Of a stretch of 64,000 nt of DNA, positions 44,268 through 64,000 are shown one piece after another. A program made the position numbers and the translations under genes. Every line of letters begins with the position of its first letter. Within the stretch, counting starts at the first letter, position 1. Source of the stretch: Tubulanus polymorphus (lineage: Eukaryota; Nemertea; Palaeonemertea; Tubulaniformes; Tubulanidae); the NCBI RefSeq assembly GCF_964204645.1, contig NC_134033.1, positions 4,337,631 through 4,401,630 of the forward strand, in the 5' to 3' direction. The notes below the pieces were generated by a model. The model was not told the origin of the DNA. It saw nothing but the letters and a program-made list of their open reading frames with translations, and did no database searches.

Positions 44268-44903
44268 GCATCAGGTGTGGTGCCAAGTGATTTCAGGTGT
44301 GGTGACTGGTGATTTCGGGTGTGGTGAATGGTGATTTCAGGTGTGGTGCCTTGTGATTTCAGGTGTGGTGAATGGTGATTTCAGGTGTGGTGCCAAGTGA
44401 TTTCAGGTGTGGTGAGTGGTGATTCCAGGTGTGGTAACCGGTGATTTCAGGTGTGGTGACCGGTTATTTCAGGTGTGGTAACCGGTGATTTCAGGTGTGG
44501 TGACCGGTTATTTCAGGTGTGGTGCCAAGTGATTTCGGGTGTGGTGAATGGTGATTTCAGGTGTGGTGCCTTGTGATTTCAGGTGTGGTGAGTGGTGATT
44601 CCAGGTGTGGTAACCGGTGATTTCAGGTGTGGTGACCGGTTATTTCAGGTGTGGTAAACGGTGATTTCAGGTGTGGTGACCGGTTATTTCAGGTGTGGTG
44701 CCAAGTGATTTCGGGTGTGGTGAATGGTGATTTCAGGTGTGGTGCCTTGTGATTTCAGGTGTGGTGAATAGTGATTTCAGGTGTGGTGCCTTGTGATTTC
44801 AGGTGTGGTGACTGGTGATTTCGGGTGAAGTGGCTAGTGACTTCAGGTGTGGTGCCTTGTGATTTCAGGAGTGGTGACTGGTGAATTCAGGGGTGATGAT
44901 TAA
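44268..44903. repeat. 22-bp minisatellite, about 29 units, with an 8-unit higher-order period
   Basis: Unit consensus GTGATTTCAGGTGTGGTG plus four variable bases (CCAA, AATG, CCTT, AGTG, ACCG and others). Units 7-14 repeat as units 15-22, an exact 176-bp shift (GAGTGGTGATTCC at 44414 and 44590). The last units decay (GTGAATTCAGGGGTGATG). It is not coding, since 22 is not divisible by three. Confidence 0.95.
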
Positions 44904-45421: not shown

Positions 45422-48206
45422 AACGCAGTTTACACGAGTCCCTGTGTTGATCGTCACAATTATAACGACTTCAACAGTGAATTGTAAAACTTTTTGATTT
45501 AATCTTATTGACAACGAGAGGGTTGTGAAATTTGAGGAACTGACTCCGTGAAATTAAAATACACAGATACCTACCTACCTAGGGTCGCCGTGACAAAAAT
45601 AAAACAGCAAGAAATGGCTTTAAAATAATGACTTAAAATGTCGTAGCCACTATTATCTACAGAATAATTTCAATACATTGTTGAATCTAATTCTGTTTTA
45701 TGTAATAAGTTTCTATGTTTGCAATAAAACACTGATGTTCATTGGTACGAAAACAACCGCTCCTATTACGAGAATATAAAATTGAGAGGAGACCCAAAAA
45801 TATCAAGAAGCGAGTGATTTGAATCATCAATTAAAAAACCGCTAAAAATATACCCGAGAAATAGTGACAGCGACAACAAACAGCGCGCACCCGAAATCAG
45901 CCAAATATCAATGAATTAATTCAACCAAATAAACCAGAAACCTAGGTACCACAGGAATAGGGCGCGACCGGGTTGGGTGAGTTGATGGGTGCTGTCTGAA
46001 CCTGAAACCAGTTGTACGTAAGTAAATGTCATTTGTATTTTATAAGAAAGTAGAGTTGAGTACTGTTCAACTCTTCATCTTACTCAAATCACACTTAACT
46101 CACAAACTGTCAAACATTGCCAATCCAGTTCATTTGTAAATAAATGCGACTTTTACTGTTGAATAGATACACTTTAATTTATGACTGTATTTTACATCAA
46201 CAGCTGAAATTATGTTTTAATTCAAAAGATCTCTATCTTTACTTCTTGGACTGGATCATGGCAATATCTAATAGAATCATGGGACAAATATATCAAATCT
46301 CAAATCAGTTTTGGTCAAATTTGATATGAAATGTCCTCCCTAAGATCTGATGAAATGAGGTTTCACGTCGGCTGTGATAATGTCATGTTCTCTCTCTCTT
46401 GACTGGAGATGAACCTGGAGCTGATGTGGACTGTCAGCTACCCTAAGTTTACAATATTTTATTTCAACCGCCGATCGAACAACTAATTTGATTTCCGATT
46501 TCAAAATGAAACCCCCTGTTTCACTCCCGGCAGGTGTGGTGGGTTTGTTACGGACACCAAATCAAAGCAAATCAGACGAAATCTACCAATCAAATAAATA
46601 ACTGGATCGATCCTTATTTTAAAGATAAAAAAGCGTCGATAGCTCTCTAAAGGGGCTCCACGGAAATTCTGGCATAATAACCAGGCACTAGATGGCACTC
46701 ATTGAGAGATTAAAAAAGAAACCACCCGGCGTGTTCTTAATATAAGACAAGAGTCAGAGACCCTAATCTATGAACTTTATCAAAATGACAATTCTAAGCA
46801 TAGAATTGAGTAACAGGGACCTGAATGAAAATTTTCTGGTATTTTTTACCTGTTGATAGTTCAAGTTTTCAGTTCATCTGATACGCGACGACTCGAGTTA
46901 TTAGATTCTGACCGGTGACGCAAGCGGTGAACGTCTGGAATCCGGCGCACAAACCAAATATCGGGAAATACGTCCCGCCATCGTTCAACTGAAATATCGG
47001 CGCAAAAAGAGGAACTGAATGAATTATTAAGACCGGAAACAAGGTCGCAGATGATATAGATGTAAATCTTCTAAAATATCAAGAGTAAATTCCCAAGCAT
47101 GATTTCAATTTTGACAGTCACACAGAGTTAAGGAGTAAAGCGATGCTTCAGGAATCCTACGACTCAGTTTGTGCTATGGCGAATCTAACTAGTTATCAAT
47201 CCGAAGCCTGTAGATCCTGCAGCTCTCAGACCATCTAGTGACGTCACAAGTATTCGGAACTTCACCCGATACATTTTTGATTGAAGATTAACTATACTGT
47301 ACGTGCGTTATTTTAAACAAACTTTCAAAACATGATCCTTCACATTGATCCTTGGAACGGTCTAACCAGCGGTAGAGTGTGAACGCACCCGGTTGAATAT
47401 TTTGAAGGTGGTTCTCCCTGACTGCAGATTGAACTGAATTAGAATTAAACGATTGAATTTGATCGAATGTCTAATAATAACGTGAAAGACTAAATCGGTT
47501 CATATTCGATACTGGGATGTCGAATACATACCAGAATGGCATTGATCAGTCTGAGAGCGGCTTTAGCGTAGTCCAGAATTCAACGATCATTAGTCCGATC
47601 TCTGGACAGTATCAACCTACGTACAAACGGATACCCAGAAAAATCATTCAACACTAGATTATAACAGACGGGATCATCAGAAGTCCCTCTCCAGGGATTA
47701 ACTAATGAAAGGCCCGTAGCGTACGAAGGTTTCCGATCCGCGCAAAAAATGGGCCTTACACCGAGAGTTGAAACTTACAACTATATTAACATGATACATA
47801 TCGTTATGAAACCACTGCTGCTACACTAACAGATGGGTTTTTTGTAAAACTAGGTTTAAAAAATCAAAGGCTTTTGTACCGTCGAAGATATCAATGATAT
47901 ACATCATTTCACGTTTATATATTTCGTCTCTAAAACGCTTGAATTTATCCATTGTGTAAAACTAAACTTGAGTCGTCTACACGTGTTACAGTTGTTCGAT
48001 GACTTTTGTGCGCGTTGCGATGAAGAAAATACTCGGCACCACCGAATCAATAACGAATAGCGAATAACGTATGACGATTAACCAATAGCGGATAACGTTT
48101 AGCGATTGACGAACAGCGTGGCGGTCCAGGAATTCCGTACGGTTGAGGTTTACAAAAAGAGAGAGATCGTGAAAATATATACATACAAGCATTCATAGAA
48201 TGTGTG
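45422..48206. other. Intergenic; includes a repeat shared with 59500-60218
   Basis: Bases ~45509-46245 match 59500-60218 in the same orientation (GAGTCGCCGTGAC-like, AAATGGCTT, TTGAATCTAATTCTG, CAATAAAACACTGA). The rest, to the transposon's target site at 48207, has no recognised gene. 48042-48120 is a run of degenerate CGAATAACG/CGAATAGCG-like elements just outside the transposon. The last ~270 bp presumably was the original 5' flank of the GPCR at 56866. Confidence 0.6.
45509..46245. repeat. Dispersed ~740-bp repeat, copy 1
   Basis: Shares most of its sequence with 59500-60218. It begins about 90 bp after receptor fragment F and contains no recognisable protein. Confidence 0.8.
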
Positions 48207-48215
48207 CATTTTACG
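48207..48215. other. Target-site duplication, left copy
   Basis: CATTTTACG immediately before the left terminal inverted repeat; identical to 56806-56814. Nine bp is the usual length for Mutator-superfamily insertions. Confidence 0.92.
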
Positions 48216-48279
48216 CGGTATTCGAAAAACGCCTAATGAAAAACACCGAATCGGAAAACGCATAACGCCTAATTCCTAG
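48216..48279 (+). repeat. Left terminal inverted repeat of the MULE
   Basis: 64 bp beginning CGGTATTCGAAAAACGCC, a perfect reverse complement of 56742-56805. Inside it CGCCTAAT occurs twice and AAAACGC twice, possible transposase-binding repeats. Weaker similarity to the other end (TGACCTAA) continues inward to about 48303. Confidence 0.96.
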
Positions 48280-49021
48280 CAATATCCAAGAAATTGACCT
48301 AAATCCCTACGTGAACTATGTAACGCAAAAAACCGATACGGTCTTTTGCAATAAATTGGATTGACATTTTTACGGTTGAAGAGTGCGTGGAGCCCCGCTT
48401 GTTCCGTTTCTACTAACGTTCGACGTTCGTTTGGTTACGCTACAAAAACACGATTATCGGTACTACGTTTGATTGATTATTCAGCAGTAGGTATTCTTTT
48501 TGATTATTGTTTAATGTTTAACCTTCGTTACTTCTACTACTTGCGTAGGCCGAATAAGTAGTACTATAGGCCTAGCGTCAGCGATGATTTTTTATTTTTG
48601 CTGCTTCAACTTGTTGAATGTTGGAATGTTGGCCTACTTTTTAGCCTCTATCATCCTTCCAATCTACTAACGACTTACAGTATACAGGTCAGCTAAACTA
48701 CTAATATTACACTCAGTTAACCTAACCAAAACTTAGTGGTATTCTAGCCTTTATTATAAAAATGGGATCGAGGACATCAATTAATTATTATAATTTTAAA
48801 AAATGACGTTTATGATTAAAAGGTAAAAGGGTCCATACAGAAGAGGGTTCGAATCTGGAATTTTCTGTAAACCTTTTTCCTTCAATTGTCACGCAGCTCA
48901 GTGATTTTTAGTATTTATCTAATTCTGTATATCTGTATATGTACGTCACCACATTCAATTCACATAGGCCTATGACACTAATTCCTTGTTTCTTCTAGTT
49001 TCACTGTAATTAACCATTCCT

Positions 49022-52000
49022 ATGGAACCTGTTTCCCTCGAGAATTTGAACAACTGCAGTTGTTATATGAATGCAGTTATTCAATCACTCCGCTGTTTGC
49101 CCGAGTTTGTCGAGCGTTTGCAGAGGCACACCGCTGTAGAAGAATGTAAGTAATGGACTAAAAAAGGACTTATAGCCTAAATTCATGGCTCAATTTCTGA
49201 TACATCTACATTTTTTTTATAGGTTCTGATAAATGTTGCTATCGATGCAAGTTGGCAGATGCATTTGACGGAAATAATGAACCTCTTTTTGAATACGTTG
49301 ATGGTAACTAAAAAATTCTGTTTTTTTATGGGTTACTCGCATAGGCACTGTATGTTTGTATTGTATAAAGAAATATATTTCTAGAAATTATACCTAATGG
49401 CTGTCAAGTCGAGCAGCAAGATGCCGAGGAGTTCTTTTTAGGACTCCTACGAAAAATTCGTCAGGAAGATTTGTAAGTATTAAACCTCCAATGTATGTGG
49501 TTTGGCCTCCATAAATGAATTTCATGCATGCAATGATGACAATTTATTTTTCAGAGTTTTAGGAGATATGTTCAAATCCACATGGATTCAGACGAGTAAG
49601 CATGCTTTGAATAATAAACTGATTGTTTATCATATGAAAAGTTTTGGCCATTCCACTGTATCTGATGACTTATATACTGAATATATTTATATAGGCCTAT
49701 GGATAATTACTGCCATCTATTACTGTCGTCTTAGAGTGATCTTTTGTCATGATTTCAGCGACATGTGAACAATGTGGGTTCGAAAATAAACTATCTGATT
49801 ATACGCCGATCACCTCTTTGCCATGCGTGGTTGGTATTTGAATTTTGTGGTTTTGTGCTTCATGACAATTTTAATTTAATTTTAATCTTCGCACAATAAT
49901 TTTGACATTTTTTGCAGGATTCTACAGATGGTTCGCTTGTGTCGAACATCCCCAAAGGTCTTGGAATCATGGATCGAAGTGAAACTATAGATTTTCGTTG
50001 CAGCAGGTATGTGTCTTTTGTAGAATTCACGATTTGTAATTCCACTAACATAGTGTTAGTTTTGTGATTTTTTTTCAGGTGTGGATTTTCTTCTGCAAAA
50101 CAATCGCGAAAATTAGCAGGGAAAAGCAGTGGAAAATATATGGCGATACACTTAAAACGGTATGTTTCTTAATATTGAGGGTACCGGTTTTAAAATTTTG
50201 TGAGCACTGTACATATACAGTTGTTTTTCATTATTTGTCTTGCCGACGCATAGACACGGTTTTAAATTGGCTTCCCAGACAATAACTGATTGAGTTTTCA
50301 ACTTAGACTGAATAATCATCACTCATTGGAGACATGTAATGATGAATTATACTATACATGTGTTATACAGTGAATGTGTGCATGCGACTAATACATAATG
50401 ATACATTCTGTTTTTTTTCAGATCTACCGTCTTCGTGCTAAGTATCCTCTGCCTATTATCATTAGACACTATTATTATGTTGATAAATGTATTTTTATGA
50501 TATTCTCATTCTATACATGTACATCTCAGATATTCTTTTTGATTGTATAAGCTTACATGTATTTGTCTCATTTTCATATCAAATATCTCTTTCTAAGATT
50601 TATATACACCTCTGGTGCAGAGCACATATACTTAATCGCTGTTTCTATCATATTCTCAATCGTATACGACTATATGAGTGGATAATGGTTGCCTAAATGG
50701 TGGTAGCATTTTCAAGCTGGCAGTTAGTTACATGAAAAGCATATACCATTTTTATTTCCAGCTATGCATTTGATAGCTTTTCAAGGACAATTCAAAGATT
50801 AGCGCATGACATTCACGCACCTATAAAACTGATGGGTCAAATGGGCAAAGAAATAGTATGTATATTTATTGAGTTTTGATACTGAGAAAACCAGTTATAG
50901 GTAATAATGACCTTATTTCTTCGCAGGTGCGCTATTCTTTGAAAAGTATTGTCCTTCATAGTGGCCATTCAACCAGATCTGGACACTACACTAGTGTGGT
51001 TAAATATGGTTGCAATTGGTTTTATGTGAATGATGATAATGTAAGTAAGATGATACACCTGACACTAATGTAACTACGGTAACAGTTTTTGGTTTGGCAA
51101 TATACTTAAATATTCATGTTTTGTTTTAGTATGATTCAACTTATATGTCTCGGCAATTCGATGGAGATTCATATATTGTGTTCTATGAACAGGATAATGT
51201 AAGCATTACATTCTTTCAACCACCATGTGCTTTTAAAATATTTTATAGCCCAATTTCTGGGGGGGGTGTTGAATAATGAAATTTTATGATTGTTTGGCAT
51301 TTCAAACCACTTCCCAAGTGGGTGTGGTTGCATTCCCTGGACCCCTAGTTTCCTTTTATAATATTACTATATCAAATCATTTTAGGATGAATTTCCAACA
51401 ACTCTGGAAAATGTTGGGGAAGTAGAAATTCAGCACCGTTGGATATGGAATCAAGTTGCATGTAAACAAAAAAAGAAAAAATGTGTAGGAAATTTCTATT
51501 TATTATCATTGACATAGATTATCAATATATGAGATTTTGTTCCAATATTTAATGTTATTGTAGGAATCAATGGTAAGAATGTCAAATAAGAAAAGAAGGG
51601 TGGAACGATCAAAGTAAGTGCAGATTATTGATTTAGAGTTATGATCCATGTAGACCTTTACTACATGTTCCAGTGTACATTTATATGTGTTTAATGGCTT
51701 AAAATTAGAACCCTGTTGAACAGATGAATCTATGTAGGATTTAAATATTCCTTTTTAGGGGTACAAACTTGAAGTGCAAGTTATGTATGTTTACATCGCA
51801 TTCGAAGTCTGGCATGATAGACCATCAAGTAGATAAGCATTTAAATGAATATATGGAAGAGATCGAAAATGATAGGTCAGTGAAATTTTGCAATATCTCT
51901 CTTAACTCTTCAATTTAACCTCATTAATTCTACATGCAAAATATAAAGTTTTTCAGGGATATATATATATACACCCTATTCAATTAGCTACTTTCTGAAA

Positions 52001-52227
52001 CTGAGCTATTTTCGGGGCAGAGCTATGTATGTAAGTCGGCTATTGTTATAAAAATTGGATATTGCAGTGAAGCTGATACATCCCCCAGTAAAAACTCTCC
52101 AGAATACATTGATATCTCGACATCTGATGAAGAAGATTTATCAAGGTAGGTTTCAACTTGTATATGAAAAGCCCTTAACTCTCCAATTTAACCTCATTAA
52201 TTCTACATGCAAAATATAAAGTTTTTC

Positions 52228-52305
<78 letters not shown>

Positions 52306-55300
52306 ACCCTATTCAATTAGCCACTTTCTGAAACTGAGCTATTTTCGGGGGCAGAGCTATGTAAGTCGGCTATTGTTATAAAAATTGGATATTGCAGTAC
52401 ATCCCCCAGTAAAAACTCGCCAGAATACATTGATATCTCGACATCATCTGATGAAGAAGATTTATCAAGGTAGGTTTCAACTTGTATATGAAAAGCTACT
52501 TTCATTCTTAGGTCTTAGGTAATTTGCTGCACTATTAGAAAATATATTATAATTGTTTTAATTTTTTCATAGTAAGCCTCCTAGAATTATTGTATCAGCT
52601 GAAAATTCTGAATCTGATGAACTACCGAGTTATGAAAATATTATGTAGGTTATCGATTCCTCATATTCCAAGCCATCTGTAAAAAATATTTTAAAACGAA
52701 TTATCCTTTACTGTTTTAGGCGCCATTCATCAGAAAAGGATACCTGTGATCAGATTCAGGTTGAACCAATAATGATATCGTCAGATGATGAGTGTCATGC
52801 CCATAGTCATACTATTAAGTAAGTTATTTCAAAATTCAGTATAGATTCTAAATAATTTCTAACGCACTTTCCAGAGAATTGTTGATTTCTTTTGTTTTAG
52901 ATATCTGAATGAAGATCGATGCCTCCCTGTTTTCAGCTCTGAAAAAGAAATTTCCGTCAGTGATGTCTGTGAAGCACTTCTGGAACAACATGATAGAATT
53001 TGCTCAAAAGTACCATATCGGTGTCAAGAAAACATGCATTTCATTGTTTCATTGAATGAGGTACCTGAAAGTGACCTAAAATGTGATGGCAATGGAGTCT
53101 TTAAAAATAGGGGTACAACTAAAAAGTTTGTCAAGAAAAGTACAACTTCCGATTATGTATTCTGCGATGAACAGGCAGCAGATTTTATATTGAAAACAAC
53201 TTATTGGAACCACAAAAAATACCCAGACTTTGGGAAAAAAATTAGATTTATAGTTGACAAATCAGGCAATATTTTAAATTCGAGGGCTTCTATCCAATAT
53301 CGATTTTCTGGAGAACCTCACATAATAGAAGTTGCTCCCCATGGCAATGCTCGCAATAATAAACCATACAGCCGAGTTAAACCAAGTGTTGTGGATAAAG
53401 TGAAAGACAATATGCTTGGACAAAGTCAAAGTGAAGCGGTCAGCAGTATCATCAGCTCTCAGAATGGAATTCTCGGAATAACTTCTTTGGCAGACATTCC
53501 CAAAAGATCTCAGGCCTATAAGATTTCACAAAAACATAGAAACGTTACTCATGGGAAAAAAGATGATGAAATATACCATGTTCTAGAACTTTCCAAAAGT
53601 GAATTGAAATTTTTTATCCGAGACATTAAACTCCATCCTGATTTATGTATAATTTTGTATTTAGATGAAACTTTGACAGATATTTACCGCTTTTCATCAG
53701 ATCCTGTTGACATGGCCACAATAACATTCGATCCAACTTTTAAATTTGGAGAATTTGATGTGACACCTATTACCTATAGACATTTACATTTTAAGACTAA
53801 ATCTACTGGTAAGACACCTATTTTTACTGGCCCAGTACTAATTCATTTCAAAAAGTCTAAATCTGTTTACACTGAACTTTTTGATGCAATAACCAAAAAA
53901 TGTCCGGACTTGCAAGATATCCTTTCATTTGGTACAGATGGGGAGAGCGCTTTAAGTGAAGCTGCACATGAGTTTTTTCCAAGTGCTATTCATTTAAGGT
54001 GCACAAGACATTTTCATCAAAACCTAAAAACCCACTTAAACACAATAGATATTCCCCAGGAAGCTAAGAAACGTATTATTACTGAAGTAATTGGCAACAA
54101 AAATGTAAAGGGTTTAATTGATTATGATTTGAATGATTTTGATGAGAAAGCTGTAGATTTATTTGATTCATGGGTTTCATCTTTTTCTCCGAGTATTCTT
54201 CCGTTTATTAATTATATCAAGTCACAGATGACAATGATGAAACAATGTATGATTTCTACTGTACGCTCATCCTCTGGCCTAGGTTTTCCTCCCGATAAAT
54301 TTTATACAAATGTATCAGAAAGTACCAACGCGAAACTAAGAAGATGGGCTCAAAGTAGAGAAATGGGTATTTCCAGTTTTATTAATTCAATTTACAATTT
54401 AGTAAAAGCTGAAAGAGATAGCATAGCTATGGCTTATGCCGGAATAGGTGAATATTTTGAAGTTAGAGATGAGTTCAAACATATTTTATTAGACCCTTCC
54501 CTCTTAGACAAAAGCATTGACCAAAAAAAACTGTTTTTGAAGAAAGCTAATTGTGTAACTATGCACGAATTGCTTAATTCTTCATCTAATATTAATGGTA
54601 CCACGGGTACCCATTCATTATCAGTGTCATGTGACGAAGCAAAATCTGTCTACTCAGTAAAGACTAGTGAAGCAGTTTTGAAAGGGATTTGGAAAAAGGC
54701 AGCCCATGTTCTTAGTTTTGATAATCATATTTCTGATGCACCAAGTCAAAATAACTCAGTTCTAAAATATAGTGTAGTAAGTGAAAGTTCAGATAGAAAC
54801 AATCAGGTTAATTTCTATTTACAACAGAACAAGTTTACGTGTACATGCCCTCAGTACAAATTTCACTCATTATGTTCGCATTCTGTAGCCGTTGCTGAAA
54901 AAGTAAAATTTCTCAAAGAATTTTTAATCTGGCACAAATCATGTAATAAGAAGACAAATCTTACTAGTCTAGCGACGGTTGGGGTGAGTTTATCTGCTGC
55001 TGGAATGAAGGGACAAACTGTTAGAAGATATCGTGGTAATCCTGGTTGTGATAATAGTATTTCCCATTCTGATGATGGTTTTTTTCTTGTATTCTTACTT
55101 GGTGTGCGAATTAAAAAATGTTATGGATGTAGGAAAGAATTTACTGATTTTGATAGATTAACTCCAAGTGATTTGATTGTACGAAAATTAGATTACCGCA
55201 CATACTTAGATAAGAATACAAATAATTTAGGTGTTAGTGACAAACGACAAAATACATATTACCATTTGAATGTTTCTTGTATTAATAAGAAATATCCTAA

Positions 55301-55403
55301 TTTCGTTCCAGGTGCAGTAAAAGTTACTGCAAGTTTACAGGCATCAATGACTGTTGGCCATTTGAAAAACTACCAACAATTTCTTCATAAAGGTTATTTT
55401 TGA
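49022..55403 (+). CDS. Ubiquitin-specific protease / C2H2 / SIM-like / MULE transposase fusion protein
   Basis: Eighteen exons join into one frame of 1,311 residues: 49022-49145, 49223-49303, 49385-49472, 49555-49595, 49759-49833, 49928-50006, 50079-50159, 50762-50855, 50927-51040, 51130-51198, 51386-51484, 51564-51613, 51759-51875, 52068-52145, 52398-52469, 52573-52644, 52720-52818, 52901-55403. The weakest joins are 49833/49928 and the donor at 51484. Residues 1-282 form a compact C19 (USP) domain: Cys box NNCSCYMNAVIQ (Cys14), QQDAEEFF, two CxxC pairs (CEQCGF, CSRCGF), IHLKRYAF, His box SGHY (His241) and WFYVNDD (Asp257). Next come basic runs, a C2H2 finger (CKLC...HQVDKH) and acidic SIM-like patches (YIDISTSDEED twice, RIIVSAENSESDE, PIMISSDDE). 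The last exon is the transposase: counted from the Met at 53034, DDE is D233 (FDPTF), D302 (GTDGE) and E429 (SESTN). SWIM is C603-x-C605-x8-C614-x-H616. A late CxxC (CYGC) follows. Expected role: nuclear cut-and-paste transposition, with deubiquitinating activity on an unknown target. Confidence 0.85.
51899..52497 (+). repeat. Tandem duplication inside the transposon that doubled an exon
   Basis: Segment 51899-52170 is repeated as 52171-52497: CCAATTTAACCTCATTAATT, AGGGATATATAT, AGCTATTTTCGGGG, GGATATTGCAG, then the exon. The second copy has an expanded (AT)n tract and small in-frame changes (loss of EAD, gain of one Ser). Both exon copies keep their splice sites and phase 2-2 borders, so the protein carries the motif YIDISTS twice. 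Confidence 0.9.
52232..52303. repeat. (AT)n microsatellite
   Basis: About 36 AT units in the intron of the duplicated segment; only a short AT run is present in the first copy at ~51959-51970. Confidence 0.97.
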
Positions 55404-56741
55404 TTTTAGATCAATGAATTCAATTTTTCTGATTATCATTTAACTCTTATTTTCAGTGGATCGAGTGTGATCTATCGAGTTTGTGTACCAGTTTGTAGCC
55501 TATGCATTGATTAGTGAAGAAATATATGTATTTATGCATTGGTAAGAAAACTTATCATTTTTCAGTTTTTCATTTAATACTTCCAATGTCTATTTAACCT
55601 TATTTGGGTGAAGTAACTCAGTTTTGGTTATAAAGTACCAACCTTCCCAATGTCCCAGATCAATGTGTCAATAAAGTTTGAAAATATGCCTTCTGTTTCT
55701 ATGCCTACAAACCGAGATACGTGTATTTTCAAAACATTTTTATCATGGTTTGTAGGTAATTTAGACATTGGAAACAGAAAATGAAGACTTTTTTCTCCGA
55801 TTCTGTTTTAGTAAATTAGAGAACTTTTGACATTCCTTCAATATAGCGTAAAATGCATGAAAAAATTGATGTTTTAGTTCCACTGTCCACTGCTGGTGAT
55901 TTACGGACATATTAATTAGGTAAATACGTCAGTTGTTAAAGTACAAGTATTTCCTTGGGTGTAAGCCTACGTGGCCATCCATAAAGTATGCATGCACAAC
56001 TTCTTATATTTTTAATTCCCTTGACTCAATTATGTGTAACGAAGAGAGAAGTTGATAAGAAATCAGGGAGTGTACCGAAGTGATACGTAAGTGTACCGGT
56101 TTTATACTGCTAATAAATCTTGTTATTATTTCATGATAATAAAAGACATTTATTTTTGATATGGAACTTAGTTTATTATTTTTGTCTTTGAGTTCAGGGG
56201 CTGAGATCATTTACATCTCTCGTTGGTAGGCCTAATCTGAATTAGACTCACATAGCGTGGATGTGAACCGTTGGAGGATTATTTGAGAAAGGCTATCAGT
56301 CTTCGTGCGCGTTGCCGTTGTACAATATTTATGCACGACCATCTAATGATTCCGGCATTCAAAATTCAAGGCCGGTTTTAAAGGGTAGATCCTAATAGGC
56401 TCGTCATGCACATTGACTGTATGGACTTAAAAACTCTTGAAAAATACCCCAAAAAGTCAGGAGTCGAACACGCTAACACCGGAGTGTAAGCGTAACGTTT
56501 TACCGCAGCACTAGCGATGCGAGGTTCCGAAACCGCATTTTGTAACTATGTAAAGCCTACCCCATAGTATTTAACCATAAACCCTCTTGATACTAACCCT
56601 TCTGATCTTTCTAATATCATCGGTTGAGAAAGCTGCCATTTTTCCGTTATGTAATTGAATTGGATTGTGAGTATCACTAAATAGTATGTAACGAAAGTGA
56701 CAATATCGGTAAATAGCACAGCTTCTAAATTAGGTCATTTT
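55404..56741. other. 3' non-coding part of the transposon
   Basis: No gene seen. A polyadenylation signal AATAAA at 55670-55675, about 270 bp after the stop codon, probably ends the transposase transcript. The remaining ~1 kb up to the right inverted repeat is unique in the window. Confidence 0.55.
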
Positions 56742-56805
56742 CTAGGAATTAGGCGTTATGCGTTTTCCGATTCGGTGTTTTTCATTAGGCGTTTTTCGAA
56801 TACCG
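56742..56805 (-). repeat. Right terminal inverted repeat of the MULE
   Basis: 64 bp ending TTTTTCGAATACCG, perfectly complementary to 48216-48279. An ATG-less frame on the minus strand crosses it and is not a gene. Confidence 0.96.
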
Positions 56806-56814
56806 CATTTTACG
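56806..56814. other. Target-site duplication, right copy
   Basis: CATTTTACG directly after the right inverted repeat; matches 48207-48215. Removing the element and one copy gives the original site TGTGCATTTTACGTGACGC. Confidence 0.92.
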
Positions 56815-56865
56815 TGACGCATTGGTAGGTGTTCCATTTCATAGATTACAGGTTTCTCTCTCACG

Positions 56866-57933
56866 ATGAATTTCAGTTCGCAGACGACTTCACTACTCTC
56901 TACAACTACTAGAAATCCCTGCACACCTTACTTATTCCAAAACGTATTGTCAATCAGCGTAAAACTAGCTGGAGGTTTTCCTATCAGTATCGTCGGAATA
57001 ATTTTGAATAGTTTCAGCATTGTGATTTTACGTCGCCAAACTTCAAATCACATATGGCTCTACATTCTGCGATGTCTGGCAGTGGCTGACATAATCTTTC
57101 TTACATTTCACATAATTCAAGAGCCTTTTCGTTTCATTGTCTCCGGTTTGACCCAGGGTAGTCATATGTTCGTGATTCCTACGAGTATGAGTTGGGGTAT
57201 TCGGCCATGGATCTATCGGGTAGCTTGGTTACCGAGAAACTCAGCGCAAGTGACAAGGAACTGGATAACTGTACTACTAGTTTTAGAAAGGTCTTTTTCT
57301 ATCGCTAGGCCATTCTTCGCTAGAACTCATTTCACAATACCAAGGGTAAGAATTGTAGTTTGTTGTTTCTATATTATTTTTGGTATCTTAGGCTCTCCAT
57401 TGATTATCGGTACTACAGTAGGTATCTGGTTTTATGACGAATGTAATAAAGTCGTTATAAAATCTATCCGCCCAGCAAGCGATCCCATACGAAAATACTT
57501 TCTCATTGAAATATTTACGTGGATTGATCACTTTCCTAATCCTTTGTATAAAGAAATCCTACCTGCTTTTTTGCTAATTACTTTCAACAGCCATCTGATA
57601 TGGACTCTGAGAAAGATTAGTTCCAGGAGAAAAGAAATGACACAAGAAGGCGAACAAAGGCTAGACGTGAAAGCTATCAGGATAGCTGTACCTATTGTTA
57701 TTTTGTTTGTCGTCTGCAAAATCCCTGCTTCGTTCCGATCTTATAACAGTTTCATCGGTCGCTTCGTCAAAATGCCACCTATTAAATACTCTCACACCAT
57801 CTATACCCTTCAAGAACTGTTTACCGATCTTTTACCGACCTTGAACTCGTCTGTAAATTTCTTTATCTATTACATAGCAAACGATAATTTTAGAGGAACT
57901 GCAATAAAATTGTTGAGAAGGCGGCCAATTTAA
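56866..57933 (+). CDS. Class A (rhodopsin-like) GPCR, probable peptide receptor, single exon
   Basis: 355 residues, one coding exon. The N-terminus has an NFS glycosylation site and no signal peptide. Seven hydrophobic segments are visible: TM1 around residues 38-57 (ISIVGIILNSFSIVILRR), TM2 with LAVADIIFL, TM3 ending LERSFSIARPF (ERS in the DRY place), TM4, a loop with YDEC, TM5, TM6 (IVILFVVCKIP) and TM7 (NSSVNFFIYY, a variant of NPxxY), then a short basic tail. The layout resembles invertebrate FMRFamide/neuropeptide receptors, but I cannot assign a ligand. I do not see the usual cysteine at the top of TM3. The start ATG lies 51 bp beyond the transposon's target duplication, so its original promoter or leader has been separated from it by 8.6 kb. 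Confidence 0.8.
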   Translation: MNFSSQTTSLLSTTTRNPCTPYLFQNVLSISVKLAGGFPISIVGIILNSFSIVILRRQTSNHIWLYILRCLAVADIIFLTFHIIQEPFRFIVSGLTQGSHMFVIPTSMSWGIRPWIYRVAWLPRNSAQVTRNWITVLLVLERSFSIARPFFARTHFTIPRVRIVVCCFYIIFGILGSPLIIGTTVGIWFYDECNKVVIKSIRPASDPIRKYFLIEIFTWIDHFPNPLYKEILPAFLLITFNSHLIWTLRKISSRRKEMTQEGEQRLDVKAIRIAVPIVILFVVCKIPASFRSYNSFIGRFVKMPPIKYSHTIYTLQELFTDLLPTLNSSVNFFIYYIANDNFRGTAIKLLRRRPI

Positions 57934-59499
57934 ACTCAGTCGAGCGAAACAGATATATTTTGGATCCGTCCAGGCTTTTTTTTAGATTTCAGAGCCCCAT
58001 CCCCTACGCCACATTTGACGAGAATTTAAAATGTGTGATTGCCGTTTAATCACTAAACCAGTTAATTACAAAGATGGAACAGAATTTGAAAAAATCAGTC
58101 TGGATACTTAATCTTCCGCTGGGGATATATTTCTTCATTATCCATTCAATGTGGGGAATTAATTTTGGCCTTTATTGTCTTATGATTTCTATGTAAAGTT
58201 AGATACATTTCCAGTGTAGAGACCCTCCTAAAACCAATATCTGTTATGAAGCTAATTGGTATCTCTACCAGAAAATGTTAGTTATAAAAAGTTTGGACCT
58301 ACGGGTGCAAGGTAGGGGGTCCTACCCCCCAAAACCTGAGGTCAAGTTGAGGTCACGCAACCAAAAACGTCTTTGTATTGCACTTTAGAAGCCAGAATCT
58401 TATACAAATAAAATAGTAAATAGCTATTTTCTTTCATAATATCATAGGACAACAAGAAAACCATCCAGGGCAGTCGTTTTATTCTTTGGGGGGTCAGAAA
58501 TTTCAAAAAATCCTCAGGGATCATAAAAGTGAAAATCGCTCAATTTTCGCTGATTTCGTAATCACTTCTCAGTTGTTTGGTTTCTTTGGGTTTCCTCAAT
58601 GTTGATCCTCTGAATCCTCTAGATATCTCATTTCCTTGATATAAAACGTGTCAGGGAGTCATCTGGGGGTCACCTTGACCCCCCAGATGACCCAGGGTTT
58701 TCAGATAATTAGGCTCCTAAAAATGAAACTTATTCAAATGAAATTCAAAGAAATCGTTCAAATTTATTCAAGCATTAATTTGAGAGTTTATTTAGTGATA
58801 AGATTGCATTTTGCAAGTTTGTTTAGTTAAATGATTGATATGTTCTAAGCGATAATTGAGCTGGGTATGGTATATGTCGAAACTAGGAATATGGTCCAAA
58901 ACCGCTGATACAACACTCACATTCCTGGTTGCCGACGACAACCAGTACATACTGCCTGTGTGTGTAGAGTATATACAATCGCTTGTGAGCTCTCTATAGA
59001 GCATAGTGGCTCTCTATAGAGCATACTGACTCAGTGTCAGCAGCCAGGCTTGACTACTTTGCCATCTATCGGGGGTAATAGGAACCGTCACTTGAGGCGT
59101 GACCACGACCTAGTCTCTTTGTTTAAGCTGTCACGTGAGGCGTGGTGACGCCAACTGAAGAGTTTAAAGTTGCTGGGAACATTAAGATAATGATTAATGC
59201 AACATGAGCCAGGCACTTTGAAATGGATGTTGTCATTGCGAATTTATTAAAAGAACTGTTGAAGGTCTCTTTAAAACTGTGTACATTAATTAATTAATTT
59301 TTTTAGAACATCAAATCTCTATATGGATCCAATTAACCCGATTGCCTTCGTTCTTGCACTTTATGTCACAGTATCACTATCTTCGACGGTCTTAGTTATT
59401 ACGTAATAAGCAAATTGCGATACTTTGTGATATTTGCTAACAGTATGAATTCAAGCGTATATGCGGCTTTCTGTGATATGTAATACGTACCATAGCGAA
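57934..59499. other. Intergenic
   Basis: No supported gene. It contains a near-perfect hairpin at 58659-58690 (TCATCTGGGGGTCA / TGACCCCCCAGATGA with a 3-base loop) and a short two-copy palindromic repeat at ~58990-59024 (CTCTCTATAGAGCATA twice). Confidence 0.6.
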
Positions 59500-60218
59500 T
59501 TGACAACGTGAGGGTTGTGAAATTGGAGGAACTGATGTGGAATAACAATAGACCGAGATCTACCTATCTAGAGTCGCCGTGACAGAAATGAAACAGCGCG
59601 AAATGGCTTCAAAATGATGACTTCAAAAGTTCGTAGCCACTATAATCTACATATAGAATAATTGTAATAAATCGTTGAATCTAATTCTGTCTTCTGTAAT
59701 GAATTTCTATGTTCGCAATAAAACACTGACGTTCACTGGTACGAAAAAACAACCGCTTCTATTACGAGATTATATGAAATTGAGAGGAGACCTCAAAATA
59801 ACAAATAACGAGTGAATTTGAATCATCAATTAAAAAACCGCGTCTTCTAAAAATACACCCGAGAAATATCGACATCAAAACAAAATCGCGCGCCCAAAAT
59901 CAGCTCAAATACCAATGAAATAATTCACCCATATAAAACCAGAAATCTAGGTTCCACAGGAATAGGGCCCGACCGAAACCGGCTGTCTGAACCTGAAACC
60001 AGTTGTACGTAAGTAAATGTCATTTGTATTTCATAAGAAGTAGAGTTCAACTCTTCAACTCTTTATCAAATCACACTTAACTCACAAACTGTCAAAAATT
60101 TCCAATCAAGTTCAATTGTAAATAAATGCAACTTTATTGTTAAAAAGTTCCACTTAAACTTACATATTCTGTATTTTATATCAACAGCTGAAATTATGTT
60201 TTAATTAAAAGATCTATC
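59500..60218. repeat. Dispersed ~740-bp repeat, copy 2
   Basis: Same orientation and order as 45509-46245 (GAGGGTTGTGAAATT, AGTCGCCGTGACA, CAATAAAACACTGA, GTTGTACGTAAGTAAATGTC). It contains no receptor-coding sequence, unlike the context of copy 1. Confidence 0.8.
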
Positions 60219-62657
60219 AACTAAGTATTCTAACCTAACCTATATATTCGGCCTACCCATTCAGGCTAGGGTTTGGGGGTAGGGAGGAGGATACTGAAAT
60301 TGAGAGACATGATATACAGGTCACACCGGAATTCTTCAGTCACTCTGTCATCATCATTCAACTTAAGGTTCAATCTACTGTGACTAGGGGATCTTGATCT
60401 TCTCACTGAAGTAGAACATACAGGCCGCACCTGAATCGGGCCACTCTGTTGTGTGCTGGGGGTGAAGACACGTACTCTGTGGCCCAGTCTTCTGGGGTCT
60501 TGTCTCAGCGATGACCCTGAAATTGTCATGTTTATTTCAAGTAAAATATTTACATAAAAGGCGTTGTCTTATAAAACAATACATTTGAAAAATCTGAAAT
60601 TCTGTAAAAATAAAAAAAAACCTGAAAATAGAGAGAAACCCTGGAATAAAAGAAGCATGAAATACAGGAACATGAAATAAAGATATGAGGCATAAGTAAT
60701 AAACAAACTGCTATTTCTATCTGTAGACCCAGAGACCCACAGGACCCTGACGTAAATAGCACCCTATTTACTAATTAAAGCATTTTATTTAAAATTGTAT
60801 TAATATTCATGCATTTCTATAACTTACTAACTCACCGAGTAAGTTCCTAAACTAATTAAACCTATAAAACATAATTTCGACTGTTAATGTTTTTCTAACT
60901 TACAATTTATCCAATCCTGTGTGTGTAATGTATGAATCCAATGATAATCCTTGAGTCAATTTGAATCCTTGTGTTTTTGATAACAGTTTTTTTTTAGCAC
61001 AGTTTATATCAATCCAGAACTAGTTTGAGCGCGATTTCATTCCAAATAAATCCTGAACAATAATACAATTCAAATTCCATTTAATTTCCAGTAACGGCTC
61101 AGTTTTTGAGAACGGTTTATCTTTCGTCCATCCAGAATACATCCTGATATGTTCACAAGAGGGGTCTGCTTGTTTTACGGGAGACAGTTTGAGCACCTCT
61201 GTCCAGACTGGTAAACCATACACCATCGCGATAACCTCTAGGTGTAAACATATACAAGACACCCACTTGTAATAATCTGTGCGAACGACAAGAATTGTCG
61301 AACACAATGAAGTTTCATATTTCATATTATCTAACTATTGGGGTCACTGGTCATAATCCATCTTCGCTCTATAAACTGCGCGGCGACTCTAGTGAAGAAA
61401 TCAATCTATTCTGAAATGCATGAAGTTTATATCGGTATAAATCATAAATCTCTGATAGCAAAATGATTTAATTTGAAAATTGAATTATTAAAATTGCCGT
61501 TAAAACCAGCTTCCAAAACTTCCTCATTAATGATTGGACGCATAATTAGTCATACTCGTCGATGATTGGCTAATTTGTACGAAATATGCATAAACTGGAT
61601 GATTTACGTAAGTTCTCAGCGGACCCGATATTTACGCGGGAACCTTACAAATGGTTCCACCTTCTTAGGAATAAAAGTTCCATCACTTCTGTGAAAATCC
61701 ACCCTCCGAAGACATGGCTGACTTCAGCCCCGGAAATCCAGGAAGAAAGACACTGAATATTTGGATGGATGAAAGCTGTGGGTACTGGAGTGTGTAATGG
61801 GTAGTGTAGTGCGATCTGTGTGCATTTGTGGCCAGCACACCGATCACATTTTTCATTGGGGTTTGGTCCAGAACTCACGAGATTTTCAACAACACGGAAG
61901 TAACGTGTAATAAATGATGACTTGAATTGCATGACTACCTACCACCCCTCATTATTGTTGGAAAACTAAACGTTCTGCACTGACTAAAAATTAGTAATAA
62001 TAATTAATAAAATTTTAGAAATGGCCAGAATTTTAACTAAGGTTCCATCTCATTTTTATTTTACAATTGCGATTGGTATAATTTTTTTTTTAAAGGCCGT
62101 TATGGCTTCGTATATCGTCTGCAATTCACTGCAAATAGTTACGCAACTACGCACGTGTTTTTGGCAGCTGTACACTCAATCGGCACCGTTCGTGACTAGC
62201 TTCACTGTGGAATTATCATTAATCAACATCGCCATATCACATCATCAACTTATATTGTGCCTTAAAACCCTAACAGCCGACCTTAATTGAAATGCACACA
62301 CGATTTCTATCATTGAAAATTGAGAGAGTGGCCATGTTTGTGTTCTGCTGCTTCGCGTAAATCCCGCGCAGTGGCGCAACCGCGCGGAGTGGGGCTGATA
62401 CGTCTAGCGGCAATATCGTTCTTGACTCCTTGAAAGGAATTGTCGCCCATAGGGCTGATCAGGTCAGGAAGGTCCGCTGATTTTTTCATCTAATAAATTT
62501 CACATTTTTATCTTCCTCCATTTGCTTATCTATAACACGAGGATATATTTACTCTTTTATCGATCCATCTAAATCTGTTAAACTTCCTCAACCAAAGCGA
62601 TTGTTTTGGCTATGTATATACGGGTATAGGTGAATCAATCCTTTCTATATCACGACG
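60219..62657. repeat. Intergenic with dispersed ~1-kb repeat, copy 2 (60582-61592)
   Basis: Bases 60582-61592 match 33244-34275 from the receptor array, same orientation. The rest holds no recognised gene. Frames at 60266-60529, 61020-61325, 61645-61932 and 62021-62290 have no domain, signal peptide or splice support that convinces me. Confidence 0.7.
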
Positions 62658-63500
62658 ATGAAGACGCGTCTGTTCTTTATTATCTGCACAGTTTTGTTGC
62701 AACTGGGAAATTTATACATTACACAAACATCTGGAGCTGAAAGTAAGTTACTGCAGCAGCCATTACTAGACTTTGTGATTATATTTCAGTCAGATTTGCG
62801 AATTCGATGACGTCAGCTGTTTAATAATAGATTTTCTACAGGCCCTAAATGCAACCTGACAAAACAACAAACTATAAACACATCTGGTTGACTTAATTTC
62901 GCATGAAGTTTGTATCTTGATGTCTGGTTTGATAAAAAACGAGTCGCTCATATAATCACCTCACTAACCAGGGGCGGAGTCAGACGTTTGAGTAGAGGGG
63001 TCAAGTGCAGTTTTTTCCCAGGTATCTCTTATATATTTCAATGAAAAATACATTCATAAATTAACCGTGTGCAGTAATTTCCGGCAGACGCCGCGAAACA
63101 GAAATAGATAAAGATTTGAATCGTGGTTTATTTCATCATTAATATGATTGATGTTTATATTCATTTGTTTCAGCAATTTACAGGACGCCTCATTCTGCTC
63201 GAGATGCAAAACCCGACAATAAAATGCAAGGAGAAACGATTCGATATACTTGTAAAATAATTGGCGGAAATTCTAAAGTATCATTCCAAGAGAAGAGAAA
63301 AGGTTCGGAACAATGGTTAACAGTTCCAGACGACCAGCTTCGCAGAACTAACGACAAACAGAATCATGTTGAGTTGGTTGAGCTAAGATTCCGAGCAGAT
63401 TTCAAACTACACAATGGATCTTCATTTAGATGTCTTATAAATGAAAGCCCAACAGATCCGGAACCTAATCAGTTTGATCTGATCGTAGTTAAACGAACTG
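62658..63500 (+). CDS. Ig-domain secreted or membrane protein, 5' exons only
   Basis: Exon 1 (62658-62742) starts at ATG and encodes a signal peptide, MKTRLFFIICTVLLQL, ending at a GTAAGT donor in phase 1. Exon 2 (63174-63500) follows a TTTGTTTCAG acceptor. It encodes one Ig-like domain: first cysteine in IRYTCKI, a Trp in SEQWLTV, second cysteine in SFRCLI, ending at a GTAAGT donor in phase 1. Phase-1 borders on both sides are typical of Ig modules. The join reads AETIYRTPHS and stays open. No stop is present before the donor, so the gene continues beyond this exon. I found no certain third exon before base 64000. Identity beyond 'Ig superfamily' is not readable. Confidence 0.75.
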
Positions 63501-64000
63501 GTAAGTAACCGTTTGAGTTGCTTATTGAAATAATCAAATAATCTAGAGCATTAACTTGCATTCTTGGTTTTCCTAGAAATATCATATAGTCAAATTGAGC
63601 TGATAAAATGTCTGATATCTGGTGTTTGTAGAGTTCGTTTTTAGCCCATTTTGGACTTTAGTCCCAGCGGGCTAGTGCGTTCACTTTTCGTCCGTAGACG
63701 GGATCCAGTTATTTTGACGAAGTTTCAAGACTGGCAGCCATTGTTGTTCGCCAAAATCAGCACTTTTTCCACATTTTTCAAGTTTTTAAGGGAAATTTTG
63801 AAGAGACTTTTATCAATTATCGTGGTCTTTCGTAAATGTTTTCATCCCCCAAAGGGCCCATCAGCACGAGAAAAATTTGGCCGATAGGACTCAAGATGGT
63901 CGTCCTCTGACCTAGGCGCTACAAATATCAATCGATGTAGATTTTGATTGTGGTTAGTTCCATCATTAAATGATTGATCTCACTATCAGAAATAATCTGA
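63501..64000. other. Intron or downstream sequence of the Ig gene
   Basis: No exon I can support. A 78-codon frame at 63651-63887 has no domain features and is probably chance. Confidence 0.5.

Follow-up and report, generated by a model that had tools for sequence, protein, structure and literature searches.

In a 64,000-nucleotide stretch of the genome of the palaeonemertean Tubulanus polymorphus (Nemertea), referred to here as the window, we identified a gene (49022-55403) that in all likelihood belongs to an apparently autonomous, recently mobile Mutator-like element (MULE) and encodes a predicted fusion, under selection, of a ubiquitin-specific protease (USP, peptidase C19) with a transposase. 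The gene has 18 exons, 17/17 introns are of the GT-AG type, and the spliced frame of 3942 nt including the stop codon encodes 1313 amino acids without internal stops. The domains of the predicted protein follow each other in the order USP, C2H2 finger, acidic linker with motifs resembling SUMO-interacting motifs (SIMs) and Mutator-type DDE/SWIM transposase. An earlier note on this DNA had proposed such a gene of 18 exons with standard splice sites and no internal stop, as the splice model bears out; its frame is open as stated, and its exon sum of 3,936 nt becomes 3942 nt with the stop on recounting.

The gene and the transposon that carries it

The gene fills a complete DNA transposon of 8590 bp (48216-56805). 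Inverted-repeat arms of 68 nt that are 99% complementary were found at 48215-48282 and 56739-56806, the outermost base of each belonging to the target duplication, and we set the ends of the element at CGG/CCG (48216 and 56805). The terminal 18-mer is present at both ends with 0 mismatches (0.08 expected). The element has the features that define a MULE: terminal inverted repeats, DDE residues, SWIM and C2H2 fingers, and a 9-bp target-site duplication that falls in the MULE range of 8-11 bp (PMC6446971). The single fused open frame that the earlier note had claimed is upheld by the splice model, and this frame sits inside a transposon.

At the N-terminal end, Pfam UCH (PF00443) matches amino acids 6-280 (E 2e-23; 83.7 bits against a curated cut-off of 23.9), in agreement with the forecast that a protein search of residues 1-282 would return peptidase C19. 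In the PDB the sequence matches USP21, USP2 and USP36, and the boxes containing Cys14, His243 and Asn258/Asp259 align with the corresponding boxes of USP2 and USP21; we take these residues to be the catalytic ones. Zinc-finger cysteines are found at positions 114, 117, 163 and 166. Because the catalytic residues are conserved, the USP domain is likely to be enzymatically active. A protein search with the USP part (851 candidates) matched only a model from the same species.

At the C-terminal end, Pfam MULE (PF10551) matches amino acids 797-854 (E 2.3e-4; 22.0 bits, below the curated 27.6) and Pfam SWIM (PF04434) amino acids 1126-1148 (E 0.004; 17.1 bits, below the curated 19.6). The MULE and SWIM matches anticipated for the last exon were thus found, both below their curated cut-offs, and for this reason the transposase call leans more on an alignment of homologues and on a fold search. 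The transposase residues are D757, D826 and E953, the SWIM residues C1127, C1129, C1138 and H1140, with C1220, C1223 and H1268 beyond them; the D, D, E, C/H and SWIM C-C-C-H positions are invariant in 6/6 aligned sequences (the window protein and five database homologues). A structure model of the transposase, weak overall with a mean predicted local distance difference test score of 55.8, served for the fold search alone, in which the sole matches at E <= 0.001 were four chains of the ISCth4 transposase.

The five homologues (P0003-P0007; ENA and JGI records) were returned, along with the same species' model, by a protein search with the transposase part. They are distant MULE-like transposases of 784-987 amino acids, 26-31% identical, with a Pfam MULE domain that is below cut-off in four and undetected in the fifth. 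USP was absent from the stretches of them that were examined, which is weak evidence because the records look like single-exon predictions. Pattern searches of collections of viral and prokaryotic genomes gave 24 and 86 matches, respectively, of which 0 were confirmed. A Pfam scan of the 1313-residue protein listed seven families at E up to 1, and peptidase C48 (Ulp1) was not among them.

When the full protein was searched against 5.8 billion proteins (4736 candidates), the single match was the NCBI model of the same locus, LOC141911244 from T. polymorphus, which is identical across exons 1-17 and on into exon 18. This model leaves exon 18 after 53598 and joins an exon at 63174-63508, ~9.6 kb downstream and beyond the right end of the element, for which a Pfam scan gave no match. 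The join from 53598 to 63174 is either an exonised transposon or chimeric transcript, or an annotation artefact.

Copies, diverged relatives and surroundings

A genome-wide search with the inverted repeat gave 40 scored matches, including the window's own, from 121 candidates, and 25 of the 39 other sites were fetched and read. One of these, on contig C8, is a second full-length copy of 8641 bp that differs from the window copy by one intronic substitution and by length differences outside exons; its 3942-nt coding sequence and its protein are identical. Since the C8 copy combines this identical coding sequence with a 9-bp duplication of its own, GATGGAAAA, the USP and transposase appear to have moved together as a unit, and recently.

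The possibility that most copies of the inverted repeat are full elements was rejected for the sites read, as 24 of these 25 gave no blastn hit in the coding part at E 1e-10 or better. Both ends were seen in 17 of these 24 short sites: 15 span 740-782 bp, one 1475 bp and one 4525 bp, and by the criterion of our script an exact 9-bp duplication is present in 8/17 and absent from 9/17. The element family so has short non-autonomous members. Many of the short relatives have ~200 bp in common with the element near 56133-56335, at roughly 70-77% identity.

Pairing of the two domains was then counted across the genome. The transposase exon has 58 matches in at least 39 loci, a lower bound given that 54 of 101 candidates were scored. 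The USP part has 56 matches, of which 38 at E < 0.01 define 16 loci and 18 at E > 0.01 were left uncounted; 26 of the 38 entered the pairing count, the other 12 belonging to additional exons of the copies in the window and on C8 and leaving the number of loci unchanged. Counting as a pair any transposase match preceded by a same-strand USP match no more than 12 kb upstream, we found pairs at 10/39 transposase loci and 10/16 USP loci, where ~0.015 pairs would be expected by chance. Co-occurrence of the two parts in other copies, which the earlier note had made a test of the fusion, is therefore seen at 10 loci, with a full USP in a diverged relative on contig C2. By similarity of scores the ten loci form five pairs: window and C8, C2:10141255 and C10:7351278, C3:17707297 and C10:9170791, C6:14605019 and C6:14633050, and C2:12559450 and C20:111423, the last being matched just in short fragments. 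That the paired loci come as alike copies suggests movement or duplication of each fused form once the fusion existed.

A few USP matches stand apart from these pairs. One at C4:19065350 (E 0.047) precedes a same-strand transposase match by ~14 kb, more than the 12-kb limit allows. Three that resemble each other (C31:35829, C5:12458440 and C3:14464265; E 0.006-0.008) have no transposase match of the element family nearby, and another set of alike matches (C8:1723299, C1:12711397, C5:3043481, C11:6783469 and C4:14807869; E ~0.5-0.6) is likewise unpaired. The two unpaired sets may represent further USP-containing genes that are repeated or mobile, or may be due to chance.

The C2 relative (C2:10133200-10143480) was read through the whole USP and most of the transposase. 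Over 731 codons its transposase shows 41% identity, and it retains, in last-exon numbering, D277, D346, E473, C367 and H370 along with the SWIM residues. Its USP of 284 amino acids is stop-free and is encoded by ten exons with the intron phases of the window gene; seven match the window exons in length, and the remaining three (exons 1, 7 and 10) are off by 3, 6 and 3 nt, respectively. A first candidate for exon 10 of this relative contained a stop and was dropped for a better-placed exon with the expected phase. The relative's USP matches Pfam UCH with E 1.4e-26 (94.0 bits). Invariant between the two elements are Cys14, His243, Asp259, Asn8, Asn10, the QQDAEEF motif and zinc-finger cysteines 114, 117, 163 and 166, while position 258 is Asn in the window element and Asp in the C2 relative.

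Over USP exons 1-9 (259 codons), differences per codon position were 0.45, 0.29 and 0.63, compared to 0.73-0.74 for random pairing. Non-synonymous divergence (dN, by NG86) was 0.50 for these USP codons and 0.61 for the 731 transposase codons, with synonymous divergence saturated for both. By this comparison, constraint on the USP is no weaker than that on the transposase, and for that reason the USP is, judging from the sequences, a selected part of the element family and not a passenger. The C2H2 finger exon is also matched in relatives, with 46% identity over 35 amino acids in C2 and 65% over 31 amino acids in a further relative on contig C4 (C4:17036293-17038707).

Features of the element and of the window, with the evidence for each
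Feature	Position	Strand	Evidence
Target-site duplication, left, CATTTTACG, 9 bp	48207..48215		Sequence reading; same as 56806-56814
Terminal inverted repeat, left, 67 bp, begins CGGTATTCG	48216..48282	+	Inverted-repeat arms
Exons 1-10, USP (peptidase C19), aa 1-284	49022..51198	+	Splice model, Pfam, PDB sequence matches, C2 relative
Exons 11-12, basic linker	51386..51613	+	Splice model; residues also in NCBI protein
Exon 13, C2H2-type finger, aa 340-363	51759..51875	+	Read from sequence; matched in C2 and C4 relatives
Exons 14-17, acidic Ser-rich linker with SIM-like motifs	52068..52818	+	Splice model; repeat blocks; motif counts
Exon 18, MULE transposase	52901..55403	+	Pfam, alignment, C2 relative, fold match
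Terminal inverted repeat, right	56739..56805	-	Inverted-repeat arms
Target-site duplication, right, CATTTTACG, 9 bp	56806..56814		Sequence reading
Immunoglobulin-like exon (our description), outside the element	63174..63508	+	LOC141911244 sequence located in window

Just outside the left end of the element, degenerate 14-bp repeats (48049-48118) resemble a 14-bp periodicity within the inverted repeat and are perhaps the remnant of an older relative. On the other side, a single-exon frame for a G-protein-coupled receptor of the Srw type (56845-57933) has its first in-frame ATG at 56866, ~60 bp past the right end, and insertion of the element may have changed the promoter of this gene. Elsewhere in the window, large receptor genes, lying in both orientations, form a tandem array at 641-41559, one scanned copy of which has LDLa, LRR and rhodopsin-type seven-transmembrane domains, with a CUB match below cut-off in a neighbouring frame, and a 22-bp minisatellite of 28.6 copies lies at 44271-44899.

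Alternative explanations and the possible role of the USP

Several observations weigh against a fusion that is intact and selected throughout the family, and we consider them together with the alternatives that they could favour. LOC141911244 ends in a host exon and not at the transposase C-terminus, so that the annotated 3' end is unlike the one in the earlier note, and its departure from the frame inside exon 18 could be cited for two neighbouring genes, a USP and a transposase, that appear fused only through the chaining of exons. We regard such an accident as very improbable, as the NCBI protein itself runs in frame from exons 1-17 into exon 18 and the C2 relative, despite a transposase only 41% identical, has, in the same order, the ten USP exons, the finger, stretches resembling SIMs and a last exon preceded by a splice acceptor. 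Stop codons interrupt the transposase match at 5/10 paired loci. Among the 13 loci with at least 40% identity over more than 1.5 kb, eight have a USP match and five have none, the USP having been either lost in some lineages, gained after the split, or diverged beyond detection with the window USP as query. The constraint on the USP was measured against a single diverged relative, that on C2. Finally, the transposase frame of the C4 relative is open over 823 amino acids, and this relative has the finger and SIM-like motifs and is without a clear USP in the ~4.1 kb upstream of its finger exon or by the genome search; weak in-order matches there to USP residues 196-220 (E 2.5) and 276-304 (E 1.1) may be a remnant or chance. 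Because this frame is open without a clear USP, the USP seems dispensable for some members.

The existence of such a relative would also fit a USP that is a useless passenger, a captured host fragment of the kind produced by Pack-MULE transduplication. MULEs do capture host DNA (PMC8277862), and the USP part has introns, as expected after capture of genomic DNA. A passenger would decay, however, whereas the C2 USP keeps its frame, intron phases and catalytic residues and is constrained at least as strongly as the transposase, and the USP and transposase matches lie together at ten loci in about five pairs of copies; we therefore give this explanation very little credence. Hardly credible, in our view, is a host gene domesticated from a transposon, for which the many introns and the existence of an NCBI gene model could be cited, given the intact inverted repeats, the 9-bp duplications and the existence, on a different contig, of a second copy whose coding sequence is the same.

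A different matter is whether the USP still cleaves ubiquitin. The Cys, His and Asp boxes announced in the earlier note are present, yet two details of them needed correction: Asn258, with Asp259 next to it, occupies the third catalytic position, and the Cys box (NLNNCSCYMN) has one residue more than those of the aligned USPs. The extra residue presumably lies near the oxyanion hole, and this counts for a USP that has lost catalysis and acts as a ubiquitin-binding module. Set against this are the alignment of Cys14, His243 and Asn258/Asp259, in their presumed catalytic roles, with the boxes of USP2 and USP21 and the invariance of Cys14, His243 and Asp259 in the diverged C2 relative. Since the longer Cys box is common to the window and C2 elements, it is not recent damage, and we judge a loss of catalysis improbable.

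If the USP is active, the linker offers a hint of where it might work. Three SIM-like motifs (YIDISTSDEED, YIDISTSSDEED and IMISSDDE) fit a pattern of hydrophobic-x-hydrophobic-Ser followed by acidic residues, Ser or Thr, compared to a mean of 0.07 in shuffled sequences, and 0/5000 shuffles reach three, although the pattern was picked after the sequence had been viewed, which also counts against our reading. The same count found no such match in the USP and transposase parts of the window protein. Linker pieces of the C2 and C4 relatives, taken from open frames rather than full models, have two matches each, a number reached in 0.02% of shuffles in either case; shuffle means across the three linkers are 0.05-0.07, and VRLSDSS, one of the C2 pair, resembles a SIM less closely than the other matches do. 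Exons 14 and 15 are a tandem duplication (repeat blocks D1-D5): the duplication at 51901-52496, also present in the C8 copy, comprises exon 14 and flanking intron, contains (AT)36 and doubles one SIM-like motif, so that two of the three window motifs, as halves of it, are not independent. The C2H2 finger, by its spacing in the sequence, agrees with what the earlier note had described, and the SIM-like motifs mentioned there are, with these reservations, more numerous than in shuffles.

From what is known of its family, the transposase part would bind the inverted repeats and cut and paste the element, as MULE transposases do, and the attached USP would be an active deubiquitinase serving the element in cis. 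The earlier note had put forward, as a hypothesis, a counter-defence in which the element would take ubiquitin off its transposase or off host silencing or repair factors. The role that we tentatively judge likeliest is that, through its linker, the protein docks on SUMO-modified proteins and that the USP strips ubiquitin either from its own transposase or from DNA-bound, SUMO-marked proteins, a removal that would prolong the life of the transposition complex. It is possible, but in our estimation rather unlikely, that the main substrates of the USP are host proteins of repair or chromatin, for instance ubiquitylated histones, at the site of excision or insertion, so that it would aid repair or unlock silenced chromatin and leave transposase stability unaffected. 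A role in repair has been proposed for the Ulp1 and OTU domains of transposases (PMC2836005), and SUMO promotes Argonaute-directed silencing in C. elegans (PMC8131101); on the other side, the sequence evidence does not separate a repair or chromatin substrate from self-deubiquitination. Repair and silencing factors, taken together, we hold to be doubtful candidates for the main substrate.

SUMO-targeted ubiquitin ligases of the RNF4 type combine several SIMs with a RING domain. With several SIM-like motifs and a USP fused to a transposase, the Tubulanus protein might be a transposon-encoded reverse of such a ligase, an idea that we offer as speculative. The protein would find SUMO-marked proteins at the element or at the break and strip their ubiquitin, and the transposition complex or the opened chromatin would thereby escape removal by the proteasome. 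If true, this would be an animal MULE lineage that evades host control via the ubiquitin pathway with an enzyme built into its transposase.

Relation to other transposons that carry ubiquitin and SUMO proteases

Animal MULEs such as Spectre (PMC6446971, Table 1) likewise have a DDE transposase with a SWIM or C2H2 finger, and target duplications of 8-11 bp as well as, in some groups, inverted repeats of tens of bp resemble those described here. The rows of that table that we consulted list no USP domain, in contrast to the Tubulanus element, and in a term search of the main text the words ubiquitin, protease, peptidase and C19 did not occur; the same was true of ubiquitin, protease, peptidase and Ulp1 in the main text of an arthropod MULE survey (PMC13359780).

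A protease of the ubiquitin family within a MULE has precedents. The earlier note was right to cite the Kaonashi MULEs of plants, which carry a Ulp1-type protease (PMC6117577), and Mutator elements with Ulp1 are described from hydra and lancelet (PMC2836005). The enzyme of those elements is peptidase C48, whereas that of the Tubulanus element is peptidase C19, a different family. C48 and C19 peptidases have different folds. Closer in activity, by its description, is the cnidarian MULE MuDR-6_HM, whose OTU domain is likewise of deubiquitinase type but is not a USP (PMC6446971, Table 1). OTU domains also occur in Ginger1 transposons and in Helitrons, and Ginger1 resembles the Tubulanus element in having OTU or Ulp1 fused to a DDE transposase (PMC2836005); in Ginger1 the protease is C-terminal on an integrase-like transposase, in Tubulanus the USP is N-terminal on a MULE transposase.

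The Trichomonas vaginalis protein XP_001314237.1 (PMC2836005) does combine a C19 domain with a DNA transposase domain, which according to its description is Transposase_11, of another transposase superfamily and from a protist. The earlier note had known of no C19 enzyme in an animal MULE, and in the open-licence literature, with Repbase reports outside its coverage, we found none in any MULE. The claim of novelty stands in this narrower form: a C19-transposase fusion is not wholly new, and C19 within a MULE is without a precedent found in open-licence papers.

Three families of ubiquitin or SUMO proteases have thus become joined to DNA transposases, Ulp1 and OTU (PMC2836005) and, with the Trichomonas protein as precedent, the USP described here, and this points to a need shared by cut-and-paste elements to alter ubiquitin or SUMO marks. 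The Tubulanus element looks intact and recently mobile and is small, and within one genome its diverged relatives include some with and some without a detected USP. In an element of this kind, the question of why transposons carry deubiquitinases becomes directly addressable.

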